DNA from: Hyphomicrobium facile
Lineage (GTDB): Bacteria; Pseudomonadota; Alphaproteobacteria; Rhizobiales; Hyphomicrobiaceae
Direction of reading: 5' to 3'
NCBI RefSeq assembly: GCF_900116175.1
Contig: NZ_FPCH01000001.1
Location: 622,501-686,500, forward strand
Length of the DNA: 64,000 bases
The translations under genes and the position numbers were made by a program. Shown one piece after another: positions 26,957 to 60,220 of the stretch (its first letter is position 1; every line of letters begins with the position of its first letter). Below the pieces are notes generated by a model that did not search any database, was not told where the DNA came from, and worked only from the letters and a program-made list of their open reading frames with translations.

Positions 26957-26961
26957 ACCCA

Positions 26962-27246: not shown

Positions 27247-27273
27247 CGGCGGTCCGGAAAATTTCAATTTCGA

Positions 27274-27307
27274 GGCCGGGAGCTTTTCCTCCCGGCCATT
27301 TTTTTTA
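27274..27307 (+). terminator. Intrinsic terminator of secreted paralogue 1
   Basis: Perfect 9-bp stem (GGCCGGGAG 27274-27282 with CTCCCGGCC 27289-27297), 6-nt loop, then ATTTTTTTTAT. Confidence 0.9.
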
Positions 27308-27535
27308 TCCGGCCGTCTGATGTTTTTGCGATCTCGCATCCGAGAAGTAAATCTGCTCGAGCTGCATTTGGATGCGGATCATTCAACGGCCTCTTTGGCA
27401 ATCGAAATGCAATTGGTTTTTCGTTGATTTATCGCGTGCACCGCGTCATGGACAGCGGCCCAAAGGTGAGCGCCGGTGAACCCAATTTTCAGCTCGAGGA
27501 CCGGTTTTTGATCCTCTTCTTGAAGAGCCATTAGA

Positions 27536-27561
27536 GTCTCCCTGCTTCCAAGAAAAGGAGA
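27536..27561 (+). promoter_or_regulatory. Leader hairpin over the ribosome-binding site, secreted paralogue 2
   Basis: TCTCC (27537-27541) pairs with GGAGA (27557-27561), again covering GGAG, with a 15-nt loop and 7 nt from GGAG to the ATG. The inner pairing of copies 1 and 3 is lost here. Confidence 0.55.
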
Positions 27562-27567
27562 GGCGCA

Positions 27568-27852
27568 ATGAAAAAAATCGTGTTCGGGATTGTCGCAATC
27601 AGCAGCGGCGTTATCGCGACGGCCGTTATCGCCGCGCCAAAAATACCAACCGCGCCAGCTGCTCAATCGATGGTTCAGCAGGCACAAAAGTTTGGTTGGC
27701 CCGATCGTCCGGGTGGTCCCGGTCCTGAACCAGGTCCTGGATGGGCCGCGGGCACCGTTTGCGATTCCGTAGAGCTAATGTGTGCCGCGCAATCGACCGC
27801 TGCTGGTGGCCAGCCGTATAACGTCTGCGTAGCGGCGTATGGCTGCCTATAG
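27568..27852 (+). CDS. Secreted Gly/Pro-rich four-cysteine protein, paralogue 2 (94 aa)
   Basis: Signal peptide about 1-22 (MKKIVFGIVAISSGVIATAV), the same APAAQSMVQQAQ block, a Gly/Pro middle (GGPGPEPGPG), and cysteines C-x6-C-x14-C-x5-C ending CVAAYGCL. It is the most diverged C-terminus of the three (Trp residues of the CMW motif replaced by Ala). It lies 606 nt after copy 1. Confidence 0.75.
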   Translation: MKKIVFGIVAISSGVIATAVIAAPKIPTAPAAQSMVQQAQKFGWPDRPGGPGPEPGPGWAAGTVCDSVELMCAAQSTAAGGQPYNVCVAAYGCL

Positions 27853-27876
27853 GCGGACATCGACAATTGAATTCCG

Positions 27877-27913
27877 GGGCCGGGAGGGTTCGCCTTTCCG
27901 GCCCTTGTTGTTG
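27877..27913 (+). terminator. Intrinsic terminator of secreted paralogue 2
   Basis: A 12-bp stem with two G-U pairs (GGGCCGGGAGGG 27877-27888 with CCTTTCCGGCCC 27893-27904) around a TTCG tetraloop, then TTGTTGTTGATT. Confidence 0.8.
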
Positions 27914-28117
27914 ATTGCTGCCGACAACTTCTGCTGGCGGATGGTGTTTCGTTTGGCGAGGCCGCACTCGATAAAAATGCGGCTTCCGTAACGGCGCGTG
28001 CGTTCGGGATCTCAGTGCGAGAGGTTACGCAGTCGGCGGATCAAAGGAGGGCGGCCGTGAACCCGATGTTCAGCTTCCAATCCGGGAATTCCATACTCGC
28101 TCTGAGGCGCCGTTAGG

Positions 28118-28144
28118 GTCTTCGTGCTTCTAAGCAATGGAGAC
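28118..28144 (+). promoter_or_regulatory. Leader hairpin over the ribosome-binding site, secreted paralogue 3
   Basis: GTCTTC (28118-28123) pairs with GGAGAC (28139-28144) using one G-U pair where copy 1 has G-C. Inner TGCT/AGCA pair around TCTA. Spacing to the ATG is the same as in copies 1 and 2. Confidence 0.6.
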
Positions 28145-28149
28145 GCGCA

Positions 28150-28428
28150 ATGAGAAAAATTGTGTTCGGGTTTATTGCGTTCAGCAGCATCGCGATTGCA
28201 ACGGTTGCAGTCGCAGAGCCTAGGCTCACGACGGCGCCTGCGGCCTCGCCAATGATTCAGCAGGCGCAGGGCGGTCCGCCGCCTCCGCCGCCGGGTGTCG
28301 GTCCACCTCCTCCTCCTCCTCCGGGCGGTCCTGCATGGGGATGCGATTCCGTGCAGCAAATGTGCACCAATCAATGGGGCATGGGCGGCTTCTGGTTCAA
28401 TCGATGCATGTGGCTACGGGGCTGCTGA
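28150..28428 (+). CDS. Secreted polyproline four-cysteine protein, paralogue 3 (92 aa)
   Basis: Signal peptide about 1-22 (MRKIVFGFIAFSSIAIATVA), block APAASPMIQQAQ, then two proline runs of six and seven residues (PPPPPPGVGPPPPPPP), then C-x6-C-x13-C-x5-C ending CMWLRGC. The C-terminal frame (NQWGMGGFWFNRCMW) is closest to copy 1 (DRWGWGGPGFRRCMW). So the ends are kept while the middle changes completely between copies. Function unknown. Confidence 0.75.
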   Translation: MRKIVFGFIAFSSIAIATVAVAEPRLTTAPAASPMIQQAQGGPPPPPPGVGPPPPPPPGGPAWGCDSVQQMCTNQWGMGGFWFNRCMWLRGC

Positions 28429-29417: not shown

Positions 29418-30341
29418 TCAGGTGAGCGTGCCGGCCTTCTGGTCGAAGCTCGCTCGCGCCCTGGCTGCCGAAGACGGAATTGTTTCCAACTCATCATCCG
29501 CAGGGCGGCTGATGGCGGAGATGAAATTGTCGACAAAAGTCCGCCGGTCGCCGGCTTCGAGCAGCGCTGCGTCAAAGACGGCGTAGATGCCGACGTCGAA
29601 CACGGGTGCGCGAGGAACGGGATGGAGCCGTCCGGGCAAAGCGTTGATCCAACGGCGAGGCAAGTAGGCTGAACCGCCCACACGCAAGATATATTCGAGT
29701 GCCGCGCCGCCATCGCTGAATGTTACGATCGGCGTATCGTCGACGGGATAGGCACGAAAAACCTCATCACTAAATTTGCGCCCCCAATCGATGTACACGT
29801 ATTTCGGATCCCATCGCACGAGTTCTCGCCGTATCGTGGCCGCGAGCACGAGTTCATCTGTCAACAGCTTGGTAGCCGACCAGCCTGCTTTCAGCGCCGG
29901 TTCATGAAAAATCGCGACGTCGACTTCGCCGGCATTCAGCTTGGCCGCCGTCGTTGCTGGATCGGCGACGATTGCGTTGATCGCGACGGTCGGCTCGTGG
30001 CGCTGAAACGACGCGAGATAGGAGGACATCAAATCCCCCCATATAACGGGTGATGCGGCGATCGACAGAATACCGTTGAAGCCGTTCGGCAGAGCTATTT
30101 CGCGACGCGCCTTGTGCCAGTTGCGCACGACCGACTGGGCATAGGGCAGGAACACGCTTCCTGCCTGGGTCAAGGTTACGCTTGTGCGCGAACGGCGAAA
30201 CAGGCGCTGGCCGAGACTGTCTTCCAGCATTTGGATGCGAGCGCTGACGGTCGACGGCGTGACGCAAAGCACTTCCGATGCGCGAAAGAAATTTCCCGCT
30301 TCGGCGATCTTCACGAACGTCTCGAGGGCTTCGATCTGCAT
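29418..30341 (-). CDS. LysR-family transcriptional regulator of the divergent monooxygenase/transport locus
   Basis: 307 aa from ATG 30341 (AAGGA 11 nt upstream); the frame is open 16 codons further. N-terminal winged HTH (MQIEALETFVKIAEAGNFFR, then TPSTVSARIQMLEDSLG and RLFRRSRTSVTLTQAG), then the effector-binding domain with FNGILSIAASPVIWG near 90. LysR proteins usually control the divergent gene and respond to a pathway substrate or intermediate. The 150-nt gap to the monooxygenase gene carries a T-N11-A palindrome, so control of that locus is likely. Confidence 0.9.
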   Translation of the reverse strand: MQIEALETFVKIAEAGNFFRASEVLCVTPSTVSARIQMLEDSLGQRLFRRSRTSVTLTQAGSVFLPYAQSVVRNWHKARREIALPNGFNGILSIAASPVIWGDLMSSYLASFQRHEPTVAINAIVADPATTAAKLNAGEVDVAIFHEPALKAGWSATKLLTDELVLAATIRRELVRWDPKYVYIDWGRKFSDEVFRAYPVDDTPIVTFSDGGAALEYILRVGGSAYLPRRWINALPGRLHPVPRAPVFDVGIYAVFDAALLEAGDRRTFVDNFISAISRPADDELETIPSSAARARASFDQKAGTLT

Positions 30342-30403
30342 TCCCACGATCCTTAGGCAGTAGCCGTCGCCCACGATTGGGTGTTGCACTGCGATATCGA
30401 CAG

Positions 30404-30418
30404 TTCGACAAAGTCGAA
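30404..30418. promoter_or_regulatory. LysR-type operator (T-N11-A palindrome)
   Basis: TTCGAC-AAA-GTCGAA is a perfect palindrome and contains TCGACAAAGTCGA, an exact T-N11-A LysR box. It lies 63 nt upstream of the LysR start and 86-100 nt upstream of the monooxygenase start. Confidence 0.6.
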
Positions 30419-30426
30419 TGATTTAT

Positions 30427-30449
30427 ATCAATAAAATCGCTTTATCGAT
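30427..30449. promoter_or_regulatory. Second inverted repeat, possible LysR activation site
   Basis: ATCAATAAA (30427-30435) and TTTATCGAT (30441-30449) form 9-bp arms with one mismatch and a 5-nt spacer. Its position near the likely -35 of the monooxygenase promoter fits an activation half of a LysR site. Confidence 0.4.
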
Positions 30450-30504
30450 CTTTCAAGCCTTCATAACGTTCGCTGCATGATCGCTTGCAGGGTTGGATAA
30501 GTGG

Positions 30505-31566
30505 ATGCGCTTCAACTACTTCCTCACAACGTTCCTTCCCCGAAAAGACTACGGCGGTGATCGTCTTTACCGGGAAGTGATTGAGCAAGCCGTTCATGCC
30601 GACGCCCTTGGCTTCGATGCGGTTTCGATCCCCGAGCACCATCTCATCAACCTTCTGATCATCCCGTCGCCACTCCAGATGGCGACCAAAATCGCGACGT
30701 TGACGCGAAACGTCGACGTCGTCATATCGATCTCGGTTCTGCCGATTCGCGATATGCGCGTGTTCGCCGGTGAGGTCGTCCAGGCCGACATTCTTTGCGA
30801 TAACCGCTTGGTCCTGGGCGTCGGACGTGGCGCGTTCGCGGCGGAGCTGGCCGGCCTCGGTGTACCTCTCGCGGAGACACCGCAAAGGTTCACTGAATCG
30901 CTATCGGTCCTCGAGGCGCTGCTGACGCGCGAAAACGTCTCTTGGGACGGCGACTATTACAAGTTCGACGGGATAACGGTGATGCCGCGCCCGGAGCGGC
31001 CGGTCCCAATCATGATCGCTACGATAACGCCCGATGCGATTTATAATTACGCCAAGCGCGGGTATGACGTTCAGACGACGCCGCTCAACTCGTCGTTCGA
31101 AGTGCTTCTCGAGCAGGTCAATGCCTTCAGGAAGGGCAGGAGCGAGGCGCCGGCGTGTGTGCGTTCGCCGAAGCTGTCGCTGCAGAGAGTCATTTATCTG
31201 GCTCGCGACGACGCTGAAGCCCGTCACATCGGACACTCCGTCTACGATTATTACAAGCGCTTCGACAACGTCTTCACCGGGCCGGGTGTCCTCCGCGACG
31301 GCATGGTCGAAGCATTGCCTCGCAAGCAGCAGTTCGAGGAGATGATGGACAATCTCCTGATCTGTACGAAATCGCGAATGCTTGAAAGCTTGTCGAGGTA
31401 CGCCGAAGCAGGCATTGACGAAGTCATCATGAGTTCGGGGTTCGGTCTGCCGCAGGCGGACATGCTCGAAATGATGGAACGCTTCGCGACGGAAATCATG
31501 CCCCACTTCAAGCCGACGAAACCAGCACGTCTGGATGCAGCCGTCTCCTCGGCCCAGATCGGATAA
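30505..31566 (+). CDS. LLM-class flavin-dependent monooxygenase (luciferase-like)
   Basis: 353 aa from ATG 30505 (MRFNYFLTTFLP); a TTG at 30493 would add four residues. The TIM-barrel luciferase-like domain shows EQAVHADALGFDAVSIPEHH near 28-47, GVGRGAFAAELAGLG near 110 and VPIMIATITPDAIYNYAKRG near 165. These enzymes use reduced FMN from a partner reductase and O2; the flavin reductase gene is 4.6 kb downstream in the same direction. The family includes TgnB, the oxygenase that opens the pyridinium ring of trigonelline, as well as alkane-sulfonate and nitrilotriacetate oxygenases. Here the betaine transporter and the hydrolase/dehydrogenase set point to a pyridinium betaine; this is an inference. 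Confidence 0.88.
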   Translation: MRFNYFLTTFLPRKDYGGDRLYREVIEQAVHADALGFDAVSIPEHHLINLLIIPSPLQMATKIATLTRNVDVVISISVLPIRDMRVFAGEVVQADILCDNRLVLGVGRGAFAAELAGLGVPLAETPQRFTESLSVLEALLTRENVSWDGDYYKFDGITVMPRPERPVPIMIATITPDAIYNYAKRGYDVQTTPLNSSFEVLLEQVNAFRKGRSEAPACVRSPKLSLQRVIYLARDDAEARHIGHSVYDYYKRFDNVFTGPGVLRDGMVEALPRKQQFEEMMDNLLICTKSRMLESLSRYAEAGIDEVIMSSGFGLPQADMLEMMERFATEIMPHFKPTKPARLDAAVSSAQIG

Positions 31567-31630
31567 ATCGCTCATGTCGCGACGAATGAAAACTCTGCCC
31601 GCAGGTCTAGCTCCATAAGGTAGTAACGCA

Positions 31631-31906
31631 TTGGCATCCGCAGCGCCTCAACACGAACTCGTCGTCATCCGCGCGCGCTCCAGTCGCCGCGCGGTGCCGG
31701 CAAAGCCGTCGGCTGCGGACGAAAAAATACCGGTGATCGAGTTAAATCTCGCCGACCCATTCCAATCCCTGCGAAACGATTGGGATTTTTCAGCCGAGCG
31801 CCAACCCCTTCTCAATTCTAGCCGCTTGCCCGCGGAAAGTGCGGAATCGGTTCGTGCCCGGAACTGTACGACCCTTCAACGTCAAGCCCAAATGGAGCGG
31901 ACATGA
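31631..31906 (+). CDS. Doubtful small open frame upstream of the binding protein (91 aa)
   Basis: TTG 31631 with AAGG about 10 nt upstream; the stop overlaps the next ATG as ATGA, as coupled genes do. The product is polar and low complexity with no recognisable fold, so this may be non-coding leader. It fills most of the 336-nt gap 31567-31902, which otherwise shows nothing. Confidence 0.3.
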   Translation: MASAAPQHELVVIRARSSRRAVPAKPSAADEKIPVIELNLADPFQSLRNDWDFSAERQPLLNSSRLPAESAESVRARNCTTLQRQAQMERT

Positions 31907-32871
31907 TCAGGAAGTTCACGCGTGCCCTTGCGATAGTGACTGCGGCGTCCGGGTTCGCGGCAGCAGCCTCTGCCGGCGATTGGAAGCCAGAGTCTACCGA
32001 TCCCATCAAGCTTACAATCAACGAATGGACCGGCCAGACGATCACCACGCACATCGCGGGGAAGATCCTGAAAAACATGGGGTACAACGTCGAGTACGTC
32101 GTGGCCGGCTATTTTCCGCAGATGACGGCGTTGCAAGACGGTAGCGTCACCGCGGCGCTCGAGATCTGGACGACCAATATCGGCGATGCCTACGACAAGG
32201 CGCTTGAGACGAAGAACGTCGTCGATGTGGGCGGCCTTGGCATTAAGCCCGTCGAGACCTGGTTCTATCCCGCCTACATGGAAGAGACGTGCCCGGGATT
32301 GCCCGATTGGAAGGCACTCAAGAATTGCGCAGCGGTCTTTGCGACACCTGATACGGCGCCGGAGGGACGCTTCCTCGATTATCCCGCCGATTGGGGCACG
32401 ACGAACAAGGATAGAATAAAAGCTCTCGACCTGCCCTTCGTTGCAATTCCCGCCGGCAGCGAAGGCGCGATCGTCGCCGAGATCAAATCTGCGTTCGCCA
32501 AGAAAACGCCGCTGGTCGTGATGTGGTACAAGCCCCACTGGGTCTACGGCAAATACGATCTTCGCCAAGTCGAGCTGCCACCCTACGAGGATGGATGTTT
32601 CGACAAACACGAGGTCGGCCTCAATCCGAATGCGACATACGACTGCGACTTCGTTCGTGGGGATGTGAGGAAGGTCGCCTGGGTCGGGATGGCCGAGAAG
32701 TGGCCTGCGGCGGTGAAGCTCATTTCGTCTCTGCGTATCACGAACGACGAGCAGATCGAGATGATAACCAAGATCGATGAAGGCGGCGCATCCCTCGACG
32801 CCGTAACGACCGATTGGCTAGCGGCAAACGAAAAAACCTGGAAGGGTTGGGTTGCCGACGCGGAGAAGTAG
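31903..32871 (+). CDS. Betaine-type ABC transporter substrate-binding protein (OpuAC/ProX family)
   Basis: 322 aa. Signal peptide about 1-24. The OpuAC-family core starts PIKLTINEWTGQTITTHIAG near 34, with GYFPQMTALQDGSVTAALEIW near 68 and KPHWVYGKYDL near 210. The Trp/Tyr-rich pocket (Trp in NEWTG, EIWTT, VETWFYP, MWYKPHW) fits the aromatic cage that binds quaternary ammonium groups in this family. Periplasmic; works with the next two genes. In this setting the ligand may be trigonelline or another N-methylated betaine. Confidence 0.88.
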   Translation: MIRKFTRALAIVTAASGFAAAASAGDWKPESTDPIKLTINEWTGQTITTHIAGKILKNMGYNVEYVVAGYFPQMTALQDGSVTAALEIWTTNIGDAYDKALETKNVVDVGGLGIKPVETWFYPAYMEETCPGLPDWKALKNCAAVFATPDTAPEGRFLDYPADWGTTNKDRIKALDLPFVAIPAGSEGAIVAEIKSAFAKKTPLVVMWYKPHWVYGKYDLRQVELPPYEDGCFDKHEVGLNPNATYDCDFVRGDVRKVAWVGMAEKWPAAVKLISSLRITNDEQIEMITKIDEGGASLDAVTTDWLAANEKTWKGWVADAEK

Positions 32872-32912
32872 TGCCGGGCGGCAAAGGCGTGATCCGGCTT
32901 CGAGGTTAAGCA

Positions 32913-34136
32913 ATGAAGTTATTTGCAACATGGAAAGCAGCCTTATCGGCCACCATTCCCGTTGCCGGAGAACCGATGTTCGCCTTGGCCGAAGGTTCCG
33001 CAGGTGTGGATTCTTCGCGTGGACGATCCACTGACGTGAAAGCGGCGCAGAGCAGTGTTCCTGCGCCGCAAGAAAACCGGCCGGCGAAAGCCGAGCCAAT
33101 TCTTTCCTGCCGCGATCTATGGAAGGTCTACGGCGGCGACGCGCGACGGGTTCGCGCGATCCTTGCGGAAGGGTCGTCGCGCGACGAGAAGATTGCACGC
33201 CTCATCGCCGAGGGGGCCAATCCTTCAGTCGCCGGCGTCAGCCTCGATGTCCGGAACGGCGAGATCCTCATGGTCATGGGGCTTTCCGGTTCCGGAAAGT
33301 CGACGATGGTGCGCTGTCTATCGCGTCTGATCGAGCCCGAAGCGGGCGAAGTTCGCTTCGAAGGACTTGATCTCCTGCAGGCGAAGCCGGCCGACCTGAC
33401 TGAGATCCGCCGCCGAAAAATCGGCATGGTCTTTCAGAACTTCGGCTTGATGGGCCATCTGACGGCTATCAATAACGTAGCGTTTCCGTTGCGTGTTCAA
33501 GGCATGGCCCTTGCCGACCGGCTGGCGAAGGCGCGCGGCATGCTCGAACTCGTCGGGCTGGCGGGTCGCGAAGACTGCTTGCCGCATCAACTTTCAGGCG
33601 GTCAACAGCAGCGCGTCGGTATCGCGCGGTCGCTGATCACCGATCCCGATCTCTGGTTCCTGGACGAGCCTTTCAGCGCACTCGATCCGCTCATCCGCAA
33701 ACAAATGCAGGACGAGTTCCTTCGGCTGCAGGCGAAGCTCCACAAGACGATCATCTTCGTTACGCACGACTTCCTCGAGGCTGCGAGGCTTGGCGACCGC
33801 ATTGCCATCATGAAGGACGGCAAAATCGTTCAAATCGGCTCGGTACTCGATTTTCTCCTGAACCCTGCGGACGACTATGTCCGCAGTTTTGTTGCGGACG
33901 TGCCGGCGCTGCGCGTCGTCAAGGCGGGTCAAATTGCGGTGCCGGCGAAAGAGCCGTTCAGCTCGCAAGGCGATCCGGTCGTCAATGCAGACGAGTCGAT
34001 CGAGTCGACCCTCAAATGCTTCTTAGGCGGTGCGCAGCGGGTCGTCGTGCGCAAGGCCGACGGGACCATCGCCGGTGTGATCGATCACAACCTCATAAAG
34101 TCCTTCCTGGGTCGAACGAACAGCGGTCATGCTTGA
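32913..34136 (+). CDS. Betaine-type ABC transporter ATP-binding protein (ProV/OpuAA family)
   Basis: 407 aa, ATG 32913 with GAGG. After ~60 residues outside the ATPase comes LWKVYGGDARRVRAIL, then Walker A GLSGSGKST near 125, signature LSGGQQQRVGIARSL near 228 and Walker B FLDEPFSALDP near 250. The C-terminal ~120 residues resemble a degenerate CBS regulatory region (VDADE-type stretch near 355, VRKADGTIAGVIDHN near 385), as in ProV-type ATPases. The 3' end overlaps the permease gene by 8 nt. Confidence 0.9.
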   Translation: MKLFATWKAALSATIPVAGEPMFALAEGSAGVDSSRGRSTDVKAAQSSVPAPQENRPAKAEPILSCRDLWKVYGGDARRVRAILAEGSSRDEKIARLIAEGANPSVAGVSLDVRNGEILMVMGLSGSGKSTMVRCLSRLIEPEAGEVRFEGLDLLQAKPADLTEIRRRKIGMVFQNFGLMGHLTAINNVAFPLRVQGMALADRLAKARGMLELVGLAGREDCLPHQLSGGQQQRVGIARSLITDPDLWFLDEPFSALDPLIRKQMQDEFLRLQAKLHKTIIFVTHDFLEAARLGDRIAIMKDGKIVQIGSVLDFLLNPADDYVRSFVADVPALRVVKAGQIAVPAKEPFSSQGDPVVNADESIESTLKCFLGGAQRVVVRKADGTIAGVIDHNLIKSFLGRTNSGHA

Positions 34137-36171
34137 GGCGTTTCCAAATCGCCAATCTTTGACGGCGCTCGGGTGCTTCGGGGCGCTCGCGCTGGCGGTT
34201 CTGGCGGTGATGTTCGGACGTGAGCTCTCGTGGCTCGCACAGGTTCCTGCATCGTTCAGCTTACCGGTGTCGAATTGGACCAACGCCGCTATTGCCACAT
34301 TCAGCACCGAGTTTCGTTCTCTGTTTCGCTTCGTCGGTGACGCGCTCAACTGGCAGCTGAAGACGTTGCAGTCGGTGCTCCTCGATATACCGTGGAGCGT
34401 GATGATCGTCGTTCTGACGCTCGGCGCACTTCGGATTGCCGGACCGGGGCTCGCCGCGCTCACGGCTACGACCTGCCTCTACATCGTATTTGCCGGGTAC
34501 TGGAAGGAAAGCATCGCCACGCTGACGCTGGTGTCTCTGGGATTGCCGCTTGCCTGTATTTTCGGGGCGGCCCTCGGCATCCTCGCGCACTCGAACCGGT
34601 ACGTGGCGGCGGCCGTCGATGCCGTGCTCGATGTCATGCAGACCGTTCCGGCGTTCGCCTATCTCACGCCATTGATCGTGCTCTTCGGTTTCGGGCCGGT
34701 GGCCGGGCTTGTCGCGAGCGTGCTCTTCGCGCTTCCTCCAATGACGCGCAACGTGAAGGTGGGGCTGGATCAGACGCCGCGCGAGACCATCGAAGCCGCC
34801 GAGATTGCGGGCTGTAGCAGACTTCAGATGTTTGCGCTGGTGCGCCTCGGGGCGGCAACGCGCCAGATTCTGATGGGCCTCAATCAAACGATCATGGCGA
34901 CTCTCAGCATGGTGATCTTTGCCGCCGTCATCGGCGGTTTCGAGGACATCGGCTGGGAGGTTCTGCGGGCGGCTCGCCGCGCCGAATTCGGCAACGGCAT
35001 TATTGCGGGACTGGTCGTTACGCTGCTCGCAATTCTGCTCGATCGGGTCAGCGAGGCGGCGTTCGTGCGCGAGCGGCAGCCGCAAAACAAACTGTCCGCG
35101 CCAAGCTTCTGGGGACTTGCCGTTCTCGCCGGTGGCGTCGTCTGGGTCGTCATCGCGCCGCTGTTGCCGTCGCCTGCGCAGCTCTCGATGCGCCCTTATC
35201 TGGCGCCGGTTCTCAATGACTCCCTGATGTCGGTGAGCGTCTATCTCTCAACGGTCACGGCAACCCTCAAAAGCGTCATCACAACGTACTTTCTCCTGCC
35301 GCTCCGCATCGGATTGGTACGGTCGCTGACGCCTGCGATCTGGGGTTTCGAAATGAGCCCCGCTCTGATGGCCATCTACGTCACGGTCTTCTGCGGCTCG
35401 GCGCTGGTTTTGGCGTTCCGTCAGCAGGTCGGCGCCGCTCTCGGTGTGCTGTTCGCGGGGCTTCTGCTTTATACGGGCTTCTCCGGAATGCCGTGGCTGC
35501 CGCTGATAGCCGGTCTGACGCTGGTCGGTTGGTGGCTTGGTGGCATTCGCCTCGCTGCGATAACTGCCGGCGGGTTGATGGCGATAGCAGTCAGCGGCTT
35601 TTGGCCGTCGACGATGTTCTCAGCTTACCTGATGGCGGCGTCGATCATCACAGCGATCGTGCTCGGCGGGTTGCTCGGCGTGCTCGCAGCCGAATACGAA
35701 CCGGTATCGCGCACGATGCGGCCGGTGAACGATTTCCTGCAAACGATACCGCCGTTCGTCATCCTCATTCCGCTGATCATGTTTTTCCAGGTCGGCGATT
35801 TCTCGAGCTATCTGGCGATCGTCGCCTACGCGATCGTGCCAATGGCGAGATACACGGAACAGGGGTTGCGGCATGTGCCGGCGACGCAGAGCGATGCCGG
35901 CCACCTTGCCGGCTGCACCTCGCTGCAACTGCTCTTCCTTGTGAAATTTCCGGCCGCGCGGAGCGATATCATCCTTGGGCTGAACCAGACGATCATGGCG
36001 GCTCTCGCGATGCTGGCGGTCGCCGCACTCGTCGGCTCACGTGGTCTTGGACAGGACGTCTACATCGCGCTCAGCAAGGCCGATTCGGGGATGGGCCTGC
36101 TCGCGGGTCTGAGCATCGCGATGATTGCGATGATATCGGACCGCTTCATGCGGCGGATGGCGGTGCGATGA
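34129..36171 (+). CDS. Fused double permease of a betaine-type ABC transporter (ProW-ProW)
   Basis: 680 aa, twice the length of ProW. Two permease modules are joined: about 80-320 and 470-675, each with the binding-protein-dependent signature (first: VSLGLPLACIFGAALGILAH, then LFALPPMTRNVKVGLDQTP and EAAEIAGCSRLQMF; second: VLGGLLGVLAAEYEPV, then VPMARYTEQGLRHVPATQSD and HLAGCTSLQLLFLVKFP). Each half carries the EAA-like loop that docks on the ATPase, so one polypeptide can replace the usual homodimer. The two halves are clearly not identical. Confidence 0.9.
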   Translation: MLEAFPNRQSLTALGCFGALALAVLAVMFGRELSWLAQVPASFSLPVSNWTNAAIATFSTEFRSLFRFVGDALNWQLKTLQSVLLDIPWSVMIVVLTLGALRIAGPGLAALTATTCLYIVFAGYWKESIATLTLVSLGLPLACIFGAALGILAHSNRYVAAAVDAVLDVMQTVPAFAYLTPLIVLFGFGPVAGLVASVLFALPPMTRNVKVGLDQTPRETIEAAEIAGCSRLQMFALVRLGAATRQILMGLNQTIMATLSMVIFAAVIGGFEDIGWEVLRAARRAEFGNGIIAGLVVTLLAILLDRVSEAAFVRERQPQNKLSAPSFWGLAVLAGGVVWVVIAPLLPSPAQLSMRPYLAPVLNDSLMSVSVYLSTVTATLKSVITTYFLLPLRIGLVRSLTPAIWGFEMSPALMAIYVTVFCGSALVLAFRQQVGAALGVLFAGLLLYTGFSGMPWLPLIAGLTLVGWWLGGIRLAAITAGGLMAIAVSGFWPSTMFSAYLMAASIITAIVLGGLLGVLAAEYEPVSRTMRPVNDFLQTIPPFVILIPLIMFFQVGDFSSYLAIVAYAIVPMARYTEQGLRHVPATQSDAGHLAGCTSLQLLFLVKFPAARSDIILGLNQTIMAALAMLAVAALVGSRGLGQDVYIALSKADSGMGLLAGLSIAMIAMISDRFMRRMAVR

Positions 36172-37241
36172 TGGGAAGTATGCAGCAGCAGCCTCAACAG
36201 GATGGCGTGGTTCCGCGTGCCGATTGGGTGGATGCCGAGATCTGCGATCGCCGGCAGTTTCGCGATCTGCTCGGCAGCTTCATGACCGGGATCACCGTTG
36301 TCGCGACGCGCGACGAGCAGGGCGAACTTCGCGCGTTTACCGCAAATTCGTTTACCTCCGTCTCGCTCGATCCGCCGCTTGTGCTCGTCTGCATCGCGAA
36401 AACGGCTTCGAGCGTGGAAGCGTTCGCACGCGCGGATACCTACAGCATCAACATCCTGGGTGACTGGCAGCGCGATCTGGCGAGCGCTTTCGCGTCGCGC
36501 GGCGCTGCCAAAATCGAAGCGCTCGGCAATCTCAGCGCGGGCGATCCGCCGGTGCTCGATCGCAGTCTCGCTACGCTGTGCTGCACGCGGGAGCAGCTTG
36601 TTGAAGCGGGTGATCACATCGTTCTCATCAGCCGGGTACGCAGCTTCAAAGACGGTGCCGGGCAGCCGCTTGGATATTTCCGAGGCGGCTACGTCGCCTT
36701 GGGCCTCGCTGAGCAGTCGCTCGAGAGATTGGGGGTGCCGCTGCTCGTCGGCGGCCTTCTGGCGAATGATGGCCGTGTCGTTCTCTGCCGGCGTCCGGGA
36801 TCGTCCGAATTCGAAATCCCGTTGGCGCCACTGCGTCCCGGCGAGCGCCACAGCAGCGTCATTCGCGATCTCTTCCTGCGGCTCGGGATAGAAGCCACTC
36901 CGCTCTTTCCCTACTCCGTCTTTCAGGAGCAGGGCCAACCGCAAACAACGATGATTTTTACGGTCGAAGCGACGGCGCCGGTTCAGTGCGGAACGCTCGC
37001 CGACGGTACGGCGATCGCCGCATTCGGAGAGGCCGACGAACCATGGAAGCTCGTCAAGGGCGACATGATCGAAGGCATGCTGAGGCGCTTCTTTCGCGAG
37101 CAAGCCGCCGGCAACTTCGGGCTTTATTGTGATACCGCGGACGGCGGCCGCATCGCTCCCATCGGCAACGGCGCCCGGCATTGGAGCGAATGGGAGCCCG
37201 GTCACTCGACCTCGCAATCGACCACCGCCGCTCAAAAGTAG
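36168..37241 (+). CDS. Flavin reductase with degenerate Nudix-like C-terminal domain
   Basis: 357 aa starting at ATG 36168, whose ATGA overlaps the permease stop (translational coupling). Residues ~25-185 are a flavin-reductase-like split barrel: FRDLLGSFMTGITVVATRD, then RAFTANSFTSVSLDPPLVLVC, and GDPPVLDRSLATLCC. Residues ~190-345 follow a Nudix-like pattern (VGGLLANDGRVVLCRRPG, then RHSSVIRDLFLRLGI), but the REUXEE catalytic part is missing, so hydrolase activity is unlikely. It should supply FMNH2 to the luciferase-like oxygenase of the cluster, as TgnA does for TgnB. Confidence 0.85.
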   Translation: MMGSMQQQPQQDGVVPRADWVDAEICDRRQFRDLLGSFMTGITVVATRDEQGELRAFTANSFTSVSLDPPLVLVCIAKTASSVEAFARADTYSINILGDWQRDLASAFASRGAAKIEALGNLSAGDPPVLDRSLATLCCTREQLVEAGDHIVLISRVRSFKDGAGQPLGYFRGGYVALGLAEQSLERLGVPLLVGGLLANDGRVVLCRRPGSSEFEIPLAPLRPGERHSSVIRDLFLRLGIEATPLFPYSVFQEQGQPQTTMIFTVEATAPVQCGTLADGTAIAAFGEADEPWKLVKGDMIEGMLRRFFREQAAGNFGLYCDTADGGRIAPIGNGARHWSEWEPGHSTSQSTTAAQK

Positions 37242-37278
37242 CACGCAATTCGAACGTCTTAACGACAGGAGACTACGC

Positions 37279-37500
37279 ATGCCCATTATCCGAGTTGAAA
37301 TGTTCAAAGGGCGGACGCCCGATCAGAAGCAGCGCCTGGTAAAGGCGTTCACTGAAACGGTCACCGACGTCTGCGGACTGAAGCCGCAAGCGGTGCAGGT
37401 GATTTTCCAAGACATGGATCCCGGCGATTATGGCGTCTCTGGCGAGCTCTTCTCGCTGCGCGCGCCCGCGCCCGCGGTGACGCCCGCAAAGTCCGGTTGA
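37279..37500 (+). CDS. 4-oxalocrotonate tautomerase family, copy A (73 aa)
   Basis: MPIIRVEMFKGRTPDQKQRL: Pro1 after Met removal and Arg11 of the tautomerase fold are kept. The position equal to Arg39 of Pseudomonas 4-OT is Gln, and Phe50 is Tyr. 4-OT proteins are small hexamers that use Pro1 as a base on enol/keto acids. The loss of Arg39, which activates the 2-keto group, argues for a different substrate. The C-terminus PAKSG is shared with copy B. Confidence 0.88.
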   Translation: MPIIRVEMFKGRTPDQKQRLVKAFTETVTDVCGLKPQAVQVIFQDMDPGDYGVSGELFSLRAPAPAVTPAKSG

Positions 37501-37542
37501 GAGCCGCAACGCAGAACATCGACAAACTCGAGGAGACTTCCC

Positions 37543-37752
37543 ATGCCGATCATTACGGTCGAAATCTTTCCCGGCCGCACCAACGACCAGAAGCGCCGGA
37601 TCGCAAAACGCCTGACGGACAGCATGGTCGAAATCTGCGGAGCCAAGCCCCAGGCGGTACACGTGCTCTTCACCGAGGTGGATCCCACCGACTGGGCCGT
37701 CGCGGGGGAACTCTGTTCCGATCGCGCGTCCGAGCCAGCGAAATCCGGCTGA
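37543..37752 (+). CDS. 4-oxalocrotonate tautomerase family, copy B (69 aa)
   Basis: MPIITVEIFPGRTNDQKRRI: Pro1 and Arg11 kept, Arg39 position is His, Phe50 position is Trp. It shares ICGAKPQAV/VCGLKPQAV and the PAKSG end with copy A, so the pair arose by duplication. The two could form a mixed hexamer, as known for some heterohexameric 4-OT proteins. Confidence 0.87.
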   Translation: MPIITVEIFPGRTNDQKRRIAKRLTDSMVEICGAKPQAVHVLFTEVDPTDWAVAGELCSDRASEPAKSG

Positions 37753-37762
37753 GGCGCGCAAG

Positions 37763-38569
37763 ATGGCAATCGACTGCGATTACACGATCGAGGGCGAAGG
37801 TCAGGCCCTGTTTCTCATCCATGGCATCGGCGCGCGCAGAACCGGATTTGCAAAAATCGTCGATCACTTGAAAGAGCATTTCTTATGCGTTTCATATGAC
37901 CTGCGCGGCCATGGCGAGTCTCCGATACCCGAGGGCCGTTTCGGATTGGACGATCTTGTCGATGATCTCGAGGCGCTTCGCAGCAAGCTCGGAATCGAGT
38001 GTGCGCATTTCGCCGGGCATTCGCTCGGCGGGATGATCGGGCCAGCCTATGCCCGCCGCTTTCCGGATCGCGTTCAGTCGCTTGGGCTTCTTTCAACCGC
38101 CGCTTTCCGAACGGAAGACGACAGCGCAAAGGTGAAGGGTCTCGGCGTCATGCTGCACGAGCAGGGAATTGGTGCTGTGCTCAACACCATGACGGCGCGC
38201 TGGTTCACGGATGAGTTCGGCGCCGCGCGCCCGGATATCATCGCGCGGCGCGCCCAGCAGGTGCTCGATACGCCTCCCGAAATCTTCATGAACGTCTTCG
38301 ACATCTATGCGGGGACGGAGATGGGACCTTGGCTTCACGAAATCACGGCGCCTGCTCTCGTCATTACCGGGGAGCTTGACGGTGGTTGCAATCCACGACT
38401 GAACCGCCTCATCGCCGATGCACTTCCGAATTCGGAACTCGTCATTCTCGACGGCTTGAAGCATGCGATCACGCTCGAAGCACCCGACCGCGTCGCTGCG
38501 CACATGCAACGTTTCTTGTTCAAACACACCGCAGGCGGCGAAGCGAAGCAACGCGTCGCCGGACGTTGA
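37763..38569 (+). CDS. Alpha/beta hydrolase of the ring-cleavage locus
   Basis: 268 aa, GAGG before ATG 37763, 10 nt after copy B. Oxyanion motif LIHGIGARRTGF near 18, nucleophile elbow AGHSLGGMIG with Ser near 89, acid in ITGELDGGCNP near 205 and His in GLKHAITLEAP near 234. In the trigonelline and vitamin B6 pathways a hydrolase of this fold cleaves the (amidomethylene)succinate intermediate; the same role is proposed here from context only. Confidence 0.87.
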   Translation: MAIDCDYTIEGEGQALFLIHGIGARRTGFAKIVDHLKEHFLCVSYDLRGHGESPIPEGRFGLDDLVDDLEALRSKLGIECAHFAGHSLGGMIGPAYARRFPDRVQSLGLLSTAAFRTEDDSAKVKGLGVMLHEQGIGAVLNTMTARWFTDEFGAARPDIIARRAQQVLDTPPEIFMNVFDIYAGTEMGPWLHEITAPALVITGELDGGCNPRLNRLIADALPNSELVILDGLKHAITLEAPDRVAAHMQRFLFKHTAGGEAKQRVAGR

Positions 38570-38578
38570 GGAATCATC

Positions 38579-40027
38579 ATGGCCGCCAATTTGCCGGACG
38601 CATTCGTCCACACGAAACTTCTGATCGACGGTGAGTGGCGCGATAGCAGCGACGGCCGGAAGATCCGCGTTATCGATCCCGCAACGGAAGAGATATTCGG
38701 CTCGGTCGCGCACGCAACGTTGGGTGATCTCGATGAGGCGTTAGCCGCGACGGAGACCGGCGCGTTCGCATGGGTTGCAATTCCGCTTCCGGAGCGATCG
38801 AAGATCATTCGCAAGGCCGGCGAAACGTTGCGGGCGCGGGCGGCCACGATTGCGCCGCTGTTGACGCGCGAGCAGGGAAAGCCGCTCGCGGAGGCGCTGC
38901 TCGAAGTCAACTCTTCGGCCGACTTCATCGAGTGGTTCGCCGAGGAAGCCCGGCGTACGTATGGCAAGGTTATTCCTTCGCGTTGGCCACATGTGCGCCA
39001 ACTTCTTATCAAGGAGCCGGTCGGTCCCGTTGCGACCTTCACGCCGTGGAACTTCCCGATCGTTGCAATCGTGCGGAAACTGGCGGCCGCTCTCGCCGCG
39101 GGCTGCCCTGTCATCGTCAAGGGCCCGGAAGAAACACCTGCGTCCGTCGCCGAGGTCGCACGCGCATTCGTGGATGCGGGCGTGCCGCGCGGCGTAGTCA
39201 ATCTCGTCTATGGTGACCCGGCCGAGATTTCGCGTTACCTGATCAGCCATCCCGTCATTCGGAAGATTTCATTCACGGGGTCGACGTCCGTTGGGAAGCA
39301 GCTCGCGGGCCTCGCTGGCCTGCACATGAAGCGGGTGACGATGGAGCTTGGCGGACATGCTCCGGTCATCGTCACGGAAGACGCGGATATCAAGAACGCG
39401 GTCAGCACGCTCGCGCAAATCAAGTTCCGAAATGCCGGTCAGATCTGCATCGCGCCGACGCGGTTTCTCATTCATGAGACCGTCTTCGAGCGCTTTCTGA
39501 AAGGTTTCGTTCAAGCGGCACAGGCCATCAAGGTCGGTAACGGTTTCGACGCAAGCACCCAAATGGGTCCGCTGGCGAACGAGCGGCGCATTCCAGCGCT
39601 CGCAGAGTTCGTCGCCGACGCGGTTTCAAAAGGCGCAGACTTGCGGGCCGGAGGCCACCGGATCGGCAACAAGGGTTATTTCTTCGAGCCGACCGTGCTG
39701 GCGCACGTGCCGCTCAGCGCGCGCGTGATGAACGAGGAGCCGTTCGGACCGCTGGCGATCATCAATCCCTATTCGGATTTGGATGACGCGATTGCGGAGG
39801 CCAACAGGCTGCCTTATGGGCTTGCATCCTACGCTCACACCAAGTCGCTGGCGACGGCACACGAACTCGCAAGCCGGATCGAGGCCGGGATGCTAACGAT
39901 CAATCACAATGGCCTGAGCTTTCCGGAAGTGTCCTTCGGCGGCGTGAAGGATTCCGGTTACGGCAGCGAAGGCGGGCCCGACGCCATGGAACCCTACCTC
40001 AGCAGTCGATTTGTTACGATGGCCTGA
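38579..40027 (+). CDS. Aldehyde dehydrogenase, succinate-semialdehyde type
   Basis: 482 aa, GAGGAA before ATG 38579, 9 nt after the hydrolase. Catalytic Cys near 290 in FRNAGQICIAPTRF, general-base Glu near 255 in MELGGHAP, NAD site FTGSTSVGKQLA near 235 and PWNFPIVAIVRKLAAAL near 158. Length and the FRNAGQIC form match the GabD/succinate-semialdehyde group. It would oxidise an aldehyde acid made by the hydrolase step, the role of TgnE. Confidence 0.88.
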   Translation: MAANLPDAFVHTKLLIDGEWRDSSDGRKIRVIDPATEEIFGSVAHATLGDLDEALAATETGAFAWVAIPLPERSKIIRKAGETLRARAATIAPLLTREQGKPLAEALLEVNSSADFIEWFAEEARRTYGKVIPSRWPHVRQLLIKEPVGPVATFTPWNFPIVAIVRKLAAALAAGCPVIVKGPEETPASVAEVARAFVDAGVPRGVVNLVYGDPAEISRYLISHPVIRKISFTGSTSVGKQLAGLAGLHMKRVTMELGGHAPVIVTEDADIKNAVSTLAQIKFRNAGQICIAPTRFLIHETVFERFLKGFVQAAQAIKVGNGFDASTQMGPLANERRIPALAEFVADAVSKGADLRAGGHRIGNKGYFFEPTVLAHVPLSARVMNEEPFGPLAIINPYSDLDDAIAEANRLPYGLASYAHTKSLATAHELASRIEAGMLTINHNGLSFPEVSFGGVKDSGYGSEGGPDAMEPYLSSRFVTMA

Positions 40028-40063
40028 GGCGACGTCACCGCCGGTCCGCTTGCAGGCCTATGC

Positions 40064-41551
40064 TCAGTCTCGAAAGTCGAACCAAACGGCCTTCGGCTGG
40101 GCGTAGTTGCGCAGAGCATAGAGCGAGAGATCGCGGCCAAAGCCCGATCCCTTGAATCCTCCGAACGGTAATGCCGGATCGAGCGCATCGACGGCGTTGA
40201 CGCTGACGGTGCCAGCCCGAATCCGGGCTGCAACGCGGTGAGCGCGGCTGAATGATCCGGTCCAAAGGGAAGCTGCCAAGGCGTAGGGTGAATCGTTCGC
40301 CATGCGTATGGCAGCGTCTTCGCCGTTGAACGGAAGAACGCAGAGGACAGGGCCGAATACCTCTTCGCGCACGAGTTCAGACGTCTCGGTGAGGCCGGTG
40401 ACTATCGTCGGCTCGATGAAGTTATCGCAGCCTTCGACGGTTTTCGTTACGCCTCCGATTACGTGGCCACCGTCGCGTTTGCCGCCGGCGATCTTGGCGA
40501 GGACGGCGTCGCGGTGGGACGTTCCGATCATCGTTCCGGCTGGCGTCTCGGGGTCGAGTGGGGCGCCGGGCGAATACGCGAGCGCCTCCTTTCGAAGCCT
40601 TTCGACAAACTCGTCCGCGATCTTGTCTTCAACCAAGAGCCGGCTATTCGCCGAGCAAACCTGGCCTTGATGGAAGAAGATGCCGGCGGCTGCCGAACTC
40701 GCAGCGCGATCGAGGTCAGCGGTATCGGCAAACACGACGTTCGCGCTCTTGCCTCCGCACTCGAGGCTGATCATTTTCAGATTGGAATGTGCGGAATATT
40801 CGAGAAATTTCTTGCCGACTTCCGTCGAGCCCGTAAACGAAAGAGCGTCGATGCCAGGGTGCAAGCCCATGGCGCGTCCCAACTCGGCGCCACCCGTAAC
40901 GACGTTGAAGACGCCTTCGGGAATCCCTGCTTCAACGGCCAATGCCGCCGCAAGCAACGCGCTTCGGGATGACTTTTCGTCGGGCTTCAGAACGACCGAG
41001 TTACCGAGGATGAGCGCCGGAGCGACTTTCCAGAAGGCCGTCTCAATCGGAAAATTCCAAGGGATGACCGCGCCCACGACGCCGACGGGCTCAAGATTGA
41101 TCGTGGCGAGGACGCCGGGCCCGACTGGAGCCGTCTCGCCGTAGATTTTGTCTACGGCTTCCGCGTACCACCGCAATGTCGTGGCTGAGCCCGGAACATC
41201 GCGCAGGAATGAATCCCGGATCGCCTTGCCGGTATCCAGCGTTTCGCAAAGCGCCAGGCGTTCGCAGTTTTCTTCGATCAGCATCGCGAGCTTCAAGAAG
41301 GCTTCCCGGCGTTTGCTTGGATGGCAGCGCGACCAGGCTCCATCGTCGAAGCGCCGGCGCGCCACGTCGACGGCGCGGTTGAGAAGATCGTCATCGGCGA
41401 GGGCGAGCGCGTATTGCGGCAGGCCTGTTGCCGGGTTCACGTGCTCGAGCGTTGCTGCATTCGGGGATGACACGAAGCGACCGTCGACGAATGATCTCGC
41501 TTCGGCTTGAAAGCGAGCAGCTGCGTCGATCCATTCCGATTTTGTTTTCAT
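40064..41551 (-). CDS. Aldehyde dehydrogenase, betaine/aminobutyraldehyde type
   Basis: 495 aa, ATG 41551 with GGA upstream. Cys near 299 in FFHQGQVCSANSRLLV, Glu near 265 in SLECGGKSANVVF, and PWNFPIETAFWKVAPALILG near 162. The FxGQVCxAxSR form is that of the PuuC/betaine-aldehyde group. It is transcribed toward the succinate-semialdehyde-type gene (convergent), so it is a second unit of the same locus. It could do the step of TgnC (the semialdehyde after ring opening), an inference from the enzyme class. Confidence 0.88.
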   Translation of the reverse strand: MKTKSEWIDAAARFQAEARSFVDGRFVSSPNAATLEHVNPATGLPQYALALADDDLLNRAVDVARRRFDDGAWSRCHPSKRREAFLKLAMLIEENCERLALCETLDTGKAIRDSFLRDVPGSATTLRWYAEAVDKIYGETAPVGPGVLATINLEPVGVVGAVIPWNFPIETAFWKVAPALILGNSVVLKPDEKSSRSALLAAALAVEAGIPEGVFNVVTGGAELGRAMGLHPGIDALSFTGSTEVGKKFLEYSAHSNLKMISLECGGKSANVVFADTADLDRAASSAAAGIFFHQGQVCSANSRLLVEDKIADEFVERLRKEALAYSPGAPLDPETPAGTMIGTSHRDAVLAKIAGGKRDGGHVIGGVTKTVEGCDNFIEPTIVTGLTETSELVREEVFGPVLCVLPFNGEDAAIRMANDSPYALAASLWTGSFSRAHRVAARIRAGTVSVNAVDALDPALPFGGFKGSGFGRDLSLYALRNYAQPKAVWFDFRD

Positions 41552-41649
41552 TTTGGTTCCAGTCGGCTCGGTTTTTCAGTTGGCAATGACATGTCGAGGC
41601 GGCCTGCCGATTAGACGGCCGGTTCAGAGTGGTGGGACCGCAAGGAGCG

Positions 41650-42879
41650 CTAAGCGAAAAGCGGATCTAGATAGTCGTTGAGGAACATTCCCTCGGGATC
41701 CATCTCGCGCCTCACGGATACGAAGTCTCCGTGGCGCGGATAGACACGCGCCAGCCGCTCGCGGTTCAGAAAGTGGATTTTTCCCCAGTGGGAGCGTCCG
41801 TCGTACTTCTCGAAGATCTTGTCGAGGGCTCGAAAGAAGTTGAGATCTTCCTTGCCCATTCTGCCGGATGCAGAAATCGCGATGCGCGGACCGCCGTAAT
41901 ATTCCGAGAGATAATTATCGTCGCCGGCCGTGAAGCGCATCTCGGCGGGGACCGTCACCACCTCAAACAGATCTCGAAGCGTGGTCTTCACTTCTCTGAA
42001 GCATTCCACGCCGACGTCGAGAGGAACCATGTATTCCATCTCGTGGAAGTCGGGTGTGTAGACCTCGGGGTATATTCGGTAACTGCGGTCGTATCGCCGG
42101 CGTATCTCGTATCGCGAAAGCTCGCCGACATCGATGGGATTTGGATCGAAGATGCGGACAAAGGCACAGTCGTCGAAGCGTTCGAGGTTACCCTCCGCCG
42201 ACACTCCGAGCCACTTTACCGAAGGGGCCGACGTACACCAGAAATAGCCAAAATGACGATATTTCTTGACCATCTCGGCTTCGATCTCGGCGACCGCCGC
42301 ATAGGGCATTATGCCGACCCATTCGTGGAGATGATAGGCTTTTGTCACCTTCATCTTGACTTGCGTGACGATGCCTAGGAGACCCAGGGAAACGCGTGCC
42401 GCGCGCATCTGGTTTTGATTGCTGTCGTCGAGCGTGCGAACGGTTCCCGTGGCATCAACGATGCGCAGCGCGTCGACCATCGACGACAGGTTTTTCAAAC
42501 TCAGGCCTGTGCCGTGAGTGCCTGTCGATATCGCTCCAACGATGCTTTGCGTATCGATATCGCCTTGATTGCTGAGGCCGAGGCCGAGCTCCCACAGAGC
42601 GTCGCCGATATCGTGAATTTTCGTGCCGCCCCAGATGGTCGCGGTATTATTTTCGAAGTCGTGCGCGGCAATCCCCTTCAAATTATCGGTGCGGATGACG
42701 ACGCCGGAGTTGGGTATGAGAGGCACGTTGGAATGGCCTGTCCCTGCCACCCGGATTTTCAAGCCTTTGTTCTTCGCGAACCTCACCGCTTCGACGATGT
42801 CATCCTCCGACTGGGCGTCGGCGACGAAAGAGTTGCAGCTTTGATTGCCGTACCAGTTGGTCCACGTGCCGTGCTTCAT
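41650..42879 (-). CDS. FAD-linked oxidase, D-arabinono-1,4-lactone oxidase type
   Basis: 409 aa from ATG 42879 (AAGG upstream; the frame is open 26 codons further). N-terminal FAD domain of the vanillyl-alcohol oxidase type (VRVAGTGHSN-like stretch RVAGTGHSNVPLIPNSG near 44, then GAISTGTHGTGLSLKNL near 118). The C-terminal aldonolactone-oxidase domain ends with SHWGKIHFLNRERLARVYPR. ALO-type enzymes oxidise lactones or sugars with O2 or another acceptor. The gene lies 98 nt upstream of the aldehyde dehydrogenase in the same direction, so the pair may be an operon. The substrate is not known; a hydroxylactone formed by the ring-opened aldehyde is one idea. Confidence 0.82.
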   Translation of the reverse strand: MKHGTWTNWYGNQSCNSFVADAQSEDDIVEAVRFAKNKGLKIRVAGTGHSNVPLIPNSGVVIRTDNLKGIAAHDFENNTATIWGGTKIHDIGDALWELGLGLSNQGDIDTQSIVGAISTGTHGTGLSLKNLSSMVDALRIVDATGTVRTLDDSNQNQMRAARVSLGLLGIVTQVKMKVTKAYHLHEWVGIMPYAAVAEIEAEMVKKYRHFGYFWCTSAPSVKWLGVSAEGNLERFDDCAFVRIFDPNPIDVGELSRYEIRRRYDRSYRIYPEVYTPDFHEMEYMVPLDVGVECFREVKTTLRDLFEVVTVPAEMRFTAGDDNYLSEYYGGPRIAISASGRMGKEDLNFFRALDKIFEKYDGRSHWGKIHFLNRERLARVYPRHGDFVSVRREMDPEGMFLNDYLDPLFA

Positions 42880-60168: not shown

Positions 60169-60220
60169 TCCAAAGGTCCGACCGGATGCATATGGTGGTT
60201 GCAGCGTCTCGGATGATGCT

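Follow-up and report, generated by a model that had tools for sequence, protein, structure and literature searches.

A candidate betaine-degradation operon in Hyphomicrobium facile with a luciferase-like oxygenase, tautomerase and hydrolase module

A 64,000-nucleotide stretch of DNA from the alphaproteobacterium Hyphomicrobium facile (NCBI RefSeq assembly GCF_900116175.1, contig NZ_FPCH01000001.1, forward-strand positions 622,501 to 686,500; hereafter the window) holds, at its positions 29418 to 42879, a locus that an earlier note on this DNA had assigned to a trigonelline-type (Tgn) degradation pathway. Judged by sequence comparison, the locus appears to belong to a gene module distinct from Tgn, formed by a luciferase-like monooxygenase (LLM), a tautomerase of the 4-oxalocrotonate tautomerase (4-OT) kind and a PcaD-like alpha/beta hydrolase. 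Our preferred reading, held with a confidence just short of even, is that the locus may be a catabolic operon for the uptake and opening of a quaternary, N-methylated compound; the likeliest candidate is a heterocyclic betaine of the pyridinium kind, trigonelline excepted.

Heterocyclic betaines are present in plants and plankton, and to our knowledge few bacterial routes for them have been described. No description of the LLM-tautomerase-hydrolase gene combination was found in the open-licence literature searched. More tentatively, we propose that this trio could be an undescribed ring-opening module of wide occurrence, one in which the oxygenase (LLM or MHPCO-like) and the importers can be exchanged and which mineralises heterocyclic betaines outside the known pathways in Roseobacter-type bacteria, Hyphomicrobiales and others, the window holding a methylotroph version with a dedicated TmoX-like importer. 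Such a conserved trio, shared by numerous bacteria of sea and soil, would serve as a genetic marker for betaine flux that is so far unassigned, and an importer of its own narrows the substrates to be considered. The comparison further tells apart two kinds of cluster that would both be labelled trigonelline degradation if annotated by enzyme class.

The oxygenase, tautomerase and hydrolase module

All three members of the module are present in the window: an LLM-class oxygenase, the putative ring-opening component (30505..31566, + strand; PF00296, E 1.7e-45); two 4-OT-like tautomerases (37279..37500 and 37543..37752, both +; PF01361, E 4e-18 and 4.1e-20); and the PcaD-like hydrolase (37763..38569, +; PF00561). 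The listed open reading frame (ORF) of the LLM begins at 30493, and alignment with relatives suggests that the start is probably the ATG at 30505. Genes for an importer and a flavin reductase part the LLM gene from those of the tautomerases and hydrolase.

The distribution of the module was surveyed by aligning the hydrolase against named genomes, with relatives picked by two peptide patterns; the best 80 of at least 275 relatives, 60-95% identical, were taken with their surroundings. Since 31 of these 80 loci are shorter than 19 kb, and short contigs truncate the neighbourhood, the neighbour counts that follow are lower bounds. An LLM gene lies within the locus for 69 of the 80 hydrolase relatives, and in 63 its end falls no more than 1.5 kb upstream of the hydrolase gene; the 11 loci without one are L030, L038, L048, L055, L073, L081, L082, L083, L092, L096 and L097. 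A tautomerase, recognised with a profile made from 51 of these loci's own sequences, occurs within 3 kb of the hydrolase in 55 of the 80, and because of this proximity the tautomerases are, on sequence evidence, part of the module core and not an addition to Tgn. Regulatory genes recur as well: the LysR-type regulator of the window (29418..30389, - strand; PF00126 and PF03466), divergent from the LLM gene, has a counterpart at 33% identity or more in 27 of the 80 loci, and 28 have a member of a single LysR cluster in which every gene is divergent, read from the opposite strand.

Among the organisms that carry the hydrolase are Rhodobacteraceae, Roseovarius, Ruegeria, Leisingera, Shinella, Rhizobium, Mesorhizobium and Bordetella, as well as metagenome-assembled genomes (MAGs) labelled Gammaproteobacteria and Acidimicrobiales. 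A plasmid of Roseovarius pelagicus carries reductase, LLM, tautomerase, hydrolase and succinate-semialdehyde dehydrogenase (SSADH) genes together with an adjoining TmoX-like system at 47-65% identity. Nearer to home, one other genome of the same genus (G020) holds the same locus with 92-97% protein identity. That copy, together with the co-occurrence of the core genes in other families and orders, argues that the locus is not a chance assembly; of 22 genomes of the genus, only two, one being that of the window itself, have an LLM at E 1e-60 or better, and the locus is therefore accessory in the genus. In a Mesorhizobium MAG (L037, positions 35-2653), an FAD/GcvT-type oxidase of the N-methyl amine kind, with DAO and GCV_T domains, stands about 5 kb upstream of a reductase-LLM-tautomerase-hydrolase module.

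The tautomerases were compared with 4-OT, in which Pro-1, Arg-11, Arg-39 and Phe-50 are the key residues. The 51 module sequences were picked by a pattern requiring M-P, so that the presence of Pro-1 in all of them follows from selection; Arg-11 is found in 51 of 51. No Arg stands among the residues listed at the Arg-39 column for 49 of the 51 (H in 20, T in 16, Q in nine, N in two, S and I in one each), and the Phe-50 column holds Trp in 50 of 51. The triad of the hydrolase, S87, D206 and H234, is intact in all 80 relatives, the constancy of S87 being partly due to selection, since one of the two search patterns includes it and is matched by 74 of the 80. The best solved relative of the hydrolase is a 3-oxoadipate enol-lactonase (2xua, E 2.9e-26); its score against the PcaD family, TIGR02427, is 150.2 bits and does not reach the cut-off of 255.85.

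Two further genes of the locus do not travel with the module. A second aldehyde dehydrogenase (ALDH), PuuC-like and encoded at 40064..41551 on the - strand (NF007352, 546.4 bits against a cut-off of 850), has a counterpart of at least 40% identity in two loci out of 80, one of them in the sister genome, and the ALO-type FAD oxidase, a lactone-oxidase-like flavoprotein (41650..42876, -; PF04030 and PF01565), recurs in one, again the sister genome. We therefore rejected both as parts of the pathway core, and from this distribution they probably lie outside the pathway steps. The earlier note had suggested the tautomerases and the lactone-oxidase-like protein as possible new steps: the former are core to the module, and the latter is not.

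Comparison with the trigonelline pathway

Trigonelline degradation by TgnA-E in Acinetobacter baylyi was reportedly described by Perchat et al. in 2018. The class to which Bordetella belongs, which enters the comparison below, is presumably Gammaproteobacteria in GTDB. The pathway is also mentioned in PMC8269262 and PMC11354265. As a putative stand-in for the A. baylyi enzymes we used a cluster of Ruegeria arenilitoris (L110) that came from a search of module-host genomes for further LLMs. On the reverse strand, at about 4292-11901, L110 has a hydrolase, a reductase of two-domain length, an LLM, an ALDH, a BCCT betaine transporter and an SSADH in a row, and it appears to suit the trigonelline pathway better than the window does. 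Solved-structure searches with the L110 LLM and hydrolase named no Tgn enzyme.

Relatives of this cluster are found elsewhere. An LLM at E 1e-60 or better is present in eight of 369 genomes of Bordetella's class, three of them at 60-72% identity, and the short stretches around show hydrolase-reductase-LLM-ALDH (L115), reductase-LLM-ALDH (L116) and hydrolase-reductase-LLM with no ALDH recognised in that stretch (L117). On pSymA of S. meliloti (L017) the LLM, ALDH, SSADH and hydrolase show identities of 70%, 73%, 64% and 51%, and no long reductase was recognised in that stretch, which also holds nifH (recognised by eye in an unannotated record); the trigonelline genes of S. meliloti map to the symbiotic part of pSym. 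Apart from these relatives, on plasmid pLDW-10 of Arthrobacter crystallopoietes (L131), an LLM gene is accompanied by genes for two flavin reductases, two ALDHs, an amidohydrolase and a BCCT betaine transporter.

With Tgn the window shares an LLM and reductase, an alpha/beta hydrolase, ALDHs ending at succinate, betaine transport and the expected release of methylamine. These likenesses, the second ALDH included, together with a host that probably uses methylamine, would suit an alternative in which the locus encodes TgnA-E and thus trigonelline degradation proper, the two tautomerases being accessory; we judge it improbable. L110 already carries a full Tgn complement with a BCCT transporter and has the relatives just described, whereas the window proteins are only distantly similar to it (LLM 27%, reductase 32%, hydrolase 26%, second ALDH 37%, SSADH 39%). 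In a tree of 53 LLM sequences, 26 from 24 of the 69 LLM-bearing loci and 27 others, hand-chosen and with long branches for the LLMs of the window's own genome and of Arthrobacter, the window LLM falls in a clade of 32 rows (support 100/100), whereas the five LLMs of the proxy type form one of their own (97/99). Further differences are the conserved tautomerase of the window module and the absence of a TgnC-like ALDH from its conserved core, the second ALDH of the window being on the opposite strand. Ruegeria arenilitoris carries both the L110 cluster and the module, so that the two are likely to serve different substrates.

Orthology with Tgn was rejected against the proxy for its 26-39% identity and separate LLM clade, and the name trigonelline pathway is probably wrong for the window. 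What stands of that assignment is the set of enzyme classes: the LLM oxygenase with flavin reductase, hydrolase and SSADH-like enzyme that the earlier note had recognised is borne out by the family profiles. Orthology with TgnA-E is not supported, since relative to the proxy both oxygenase and hydrolase group elsewhere, the LLM by clade and identity and the hydrolase by identity; this is the outcome that the earlier note had named as speaking against its proposal.

The expectation that the host could use the released methylamine as a methylotroph fared better. Four host genes score above the TIGR03105 cut-off for type III glutamine synthetase, a family to which the methylamine enzyme GmaS presumably belongs and whose cut-off is passed by one of 14 control genomes; host use of the released methylamine thus appears likely.

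Importer, substrate class and proposed route

A quaternary-ammonium ATP-binding cassette (ABC) importer of the ProU/TmoX type is encoded between the LLM and the reductase, in keeping with the betaine-type importer previously noted in this operon. It consists of a periplasmic, TmoX-like OpuAC binding protein (31903..32871, +; PF04069, E 3.7e-50), a ProV-like ATPase (32913..34136, +; TIGR01186, 316.5 bits, just short of the 326.6 cut-off) and a fused double permease of the ProW type (34129..36171, +; two PF00528 (BPD_transp_1) stretches). The nearest solved structure to the binding protein, at E 2.3e-64, is PDB 4xz6, TmoX, the binding protein for trimethylamine N-oxide (TMAO); against the choline and ProX families it scores well under cut-off. 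Residues W42, W89, E118, W120 and W164 align with W55, W102, E131, W133 and W177 of 4xz6, presumably its TMAO-site residues, although the ligand is not readable from sequence. The system resembles the TmoXWV transporter for TMAO in its binding protein, ATPase, fused permease and five aligned W/E residues, and differs from it in lying within an LLM operon.

The host genome encodes, with the window copy, no fewer than five TmoX-like proteins that reach E 1e-70 (five of seven candidates were scored), and the next-best system adjoins a trimethylamine monooxygenase (803.9 bits, cut-off 675). That locus (L165, contig C4, 314000-333500), where a TmoX-like importer, the trimethylamine monooxygenase and a Rieske oxygenase stand together, is probably the organism's canonical TMAO and trimethylamine locus. 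Because the other system adjoins the monooxygenase, the window copy is probably a paralogue serving another ligand. Six further TmoX-like loci from other genomes have an LLM nearby in one case (L164, 24% identical), and the TmoX-like family as such is therefore no marker of the module.

A permease that shares at least 30% identity with that of the window lies beside the module in five of the 80 loci (L018, from the sister genome, L019, L020, L048 and L097), as well as in the window and on the Roseovarius pelagicus plasmid. The binding proteins tested there are of three kinds: TmoX-like in the window, in L013 (97% identical to the window copy) and in L007 (62%); ProX-like in L097 (1r9l, E 3.8e-63) and in L048, whose protein is 65% identical to that of L097; and a distant OpuAC type in L020. 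An apparently similar double arrangement, with a second ABC system within the operon (of SBP_bac_5 type in Roseovarius), a quaternary-ammonium system next door and extra LLM copies, is seen in Roseovarius pelagicus, Shinella and Rhizobium setariae.

Might the ABC system be an osmolyte or TMAO importer that sits in the operon by accident, the enzymes acting on an unrelated compound? The several TmoX-like proteins of the genome and the absence of such a permease from 75 of the 80 module loci would allow it, and we rate this as slightly less probable even than trigonelline degradation itself. The importer genes are embedded in the operon: eight genes, from binding protein through SSADH, form one tight co-directional unit with gaps of -8 to +42 bp, and the stop of the permease overlaps the start of the flavin reductase by 4 bp (ATGA), which confirms the coupling noted earlier. 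In other loci, too, the module has quaternary-ammonium importers next to it, and these are of three kinds. The LLM gene itself sits 336 bp upstream of the binding-protein gene.

As expected of a two-component flavin oxygenase, the operon has a PF01613 flavin reductase, lying between importer and SSADH. It is a long two-domain protein (36168..37241, +) of 357 residues, aligns with 3rh7 from residue 22 to 338 (E 1.1e-44) and is 50% identical to its Roseovarius counterpart over 329 columns. The SSADH-like ALDH (38579..40027, +) has TIGR01780 as its best NCBIfam family, at 461.7 bits under a cut-off of 646.35; its catalytic Cys and Glu motifs are present, and it is 61% identical to the copy on the Roseovarius plasmid and 65% to that of a Shinella module locus.

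Sequence evidence for pyridine-like rings as module substrates comes best from two loci in which the oxygenase is exchanged. L048 and L097 keep the hydrolase, the tautomerase and a second hydrolase, and in place of the LLM, none of which was found in either locus, they have a flavoprotein gene between hydrolase and tautomerase. The two flavoproteins are 73% identical, and the best solved relatives of that in L048 are MHPCO (E 8e-62), an enzyme that opens a pyridine ring, and then 6-hydroxynicotinate 3-monooxygenase (6e-24). The genome of L048 yielded no module-type LLM at E 1e-40; that of L097 yielded a single one, weakly matching (1.2e-41) and set in a cluster of a different kind. MHPCO points to a parallel with the vitamin B6 route, in which it acts with an amidomethylene-succinate hydrolase; a hydrolase releasing succinic semialdehyde would be common to both, and the LLM, tautomerase and adjoining quaternary-ammonium importer set the window apart. 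MHPCO-like genes were also observed elsewhere on Arthrobacter plasmid pLDW-10 (L170; 44% identical to that of L097) and on plasmid pA of Rhodococcus pyridinivorans (L169), where the flavoprotein gene is followed by a torT-annotated gene, an amidohydrolase, an ABC system and an SSADH, with an LLM gene about 4 kb upstream.

A quaternary N-heterocycle appears the best substrate class because importers of three kinds adjoin the module and an MHPCO relative replaces the LLM in two loci, and uptake and opening of an N-methylated heterocyclic betaine, as proposed earlier, thereby gains in plausibility. In such a route, whose substrate, ring opening, step order and regulation we infer, the divergent LysR protein would regulate the operon and the TmoX/ProU-type system would import the N-methylated (quaternary) compound. 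The long reductase would supply reduced flavin and the LLM oxygenase would open the ring; an N-methylpyridinium opened between C2 and C3 would give an N-formyl-N-methyl dienol, suited to a 4-OT-like enzyme. The Pro-1 tautomerases would then ketonise the dienol or shift a misplaced double bond, and the Ser-Asp-His hydrolase would cleave an N-acyl-enamide or an enol lactone, yielding succinic semialdehyde along with methylamine and formate, or their amide. SSADH would convert succinic semialdehyde to succinate, and methylamine would enter the GmaS route. Pyridine degradation in Arthrobacter sp. 68b reportedly has the same LLM and reductase ring opening and SSADH end; a tautomerase and a betaine importer are not known to be part of it.

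The hydrolase invites a different chemistry. The LLM could hydroxylate a five-membered ring (of the N-methylpyrrole or furan type) or carry out a Baeyer-Villiger reaction; the tautomerase would then shift a double bond in the resulting butenolide or pyrrolinone before the hydrolase opens it to succinic semialdehyde. This is rather unlikely in our estimation, yet it is the strongest of the alternatives: an enol-lactonase is the nearest solved structure, TIGR02427 is matched at 150 bits, an SSADH-like gene follows, and an isomerase followed by an enol-lactonase-like enzyme is the logic of the muconolactone route, with muconolactone isomerase and PcaD. The parallel is imperfect in that the window tautomerase belongs to the 4-OT family and the hydrolase stays under the PcaD cut-off. 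The replacement of the LLM by an MHPCO-like oxygenase points to six-membered pyridines, and an enol lactone and an enamide are indistinguishable from sequence.

Acyclic substrates are harder to reconcile with the module. Were the compound an acyclic quaternary amine such as gamma-butyrobetaine or a choline relative, the LLM would cleave a C-N bond, as some LLM enzymes (nitrilotriacetate monooxygenase) do, and give succinic semialdehyde directly, in agreement with the TmoX-like importer and the SSADH-like gene. The tautomerase, kept by the hydrolase in most loci, would have no role, and we give this reading little credence, about as little as trigonelline degradation itself.

Among pyridinium betaines, homarine (N-methylpicolinate) deserves mention, and Mgd, which bears on it, is N-methylglutamate dehydrogenase. 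Homarine is abundant in plankton according to PMC8269262, to which a correction lowers the concentrations, and the same paper states that R. pomeroyi grew less effectively on homarine than on trigonelline. The route reported in PMC13390433 involves Mgd, and for that link we rated the homarine pathway low; SSADH does not fit it either, and it is the least probable of the readings considered here, very improbable indeed.

Several observations weigh against the preferred reading. A quaternary-ammonium permease is missing from 75 of the 80 loci, a long reductase at 50% identity or more from 77 (that of L018 was missed by the gene caller) and an SSADH at 50% or more from 74; seven other loci have a flavin reductase at 26-38% only, and L034 and L030 have as neighbours, respectively, a polar amino acid (SBP_bac_3) and an SBP_bac_8 system. 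With importer, long reductase and SSADH absent nearby in most loci, the trio may serve further substrates too. The importer is found in four of five loci of a subset against one of the 75 others (p 1.6e-5), or, with L018 counted as having the reductase, in five of six against 0 of 74 (p 2.5e-7), both values being descriptive and ignoring relatedness; this subset was chosen post hoc, and L018 is the window's sister. The hydrolase is nearest to enol-lactonase and esterases, so that a lactone fits it equally with an amide. The MHPCO-like variant is confined to two of the 80 loci and was found in 0 of 376 further genomes of the class at E 1e-75, a search that lacked a positive control; a relative (48%) on S. 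fredii pNGR234b has neither a recognised tautomerase nor a recognised module hydrolase in its surroundings.

Gene inventory and surroundings of the locus

The ORF list and family profiles recovered, in this 4.4 Mb genome, all twelve genes that the earlier note had named, with ORFs and families matching at the positions given above, and its inventory is confirmed. Outside the locus, upstream at 26929-28268 of the window, a diverged direct repeat of about 129 nt (166 nt for two of the copies) occurs three times, with spacings of 606 and 582 bp and 67-74% identity. A PQQ-dependent alcohol dehydrogenase-type protein (PF01011) is encoded at 53712-55538 (- strand). Molybdenum hydroxylases often hydroxylate N-heterocycles, and genes for the FAD and large subunits of such an enzyme (PF00941, PF02738 and PF20256) are located at 60212-63944 (+), 20 kb from the operon, with a TetR gene beside them at 59209-59973 (-).

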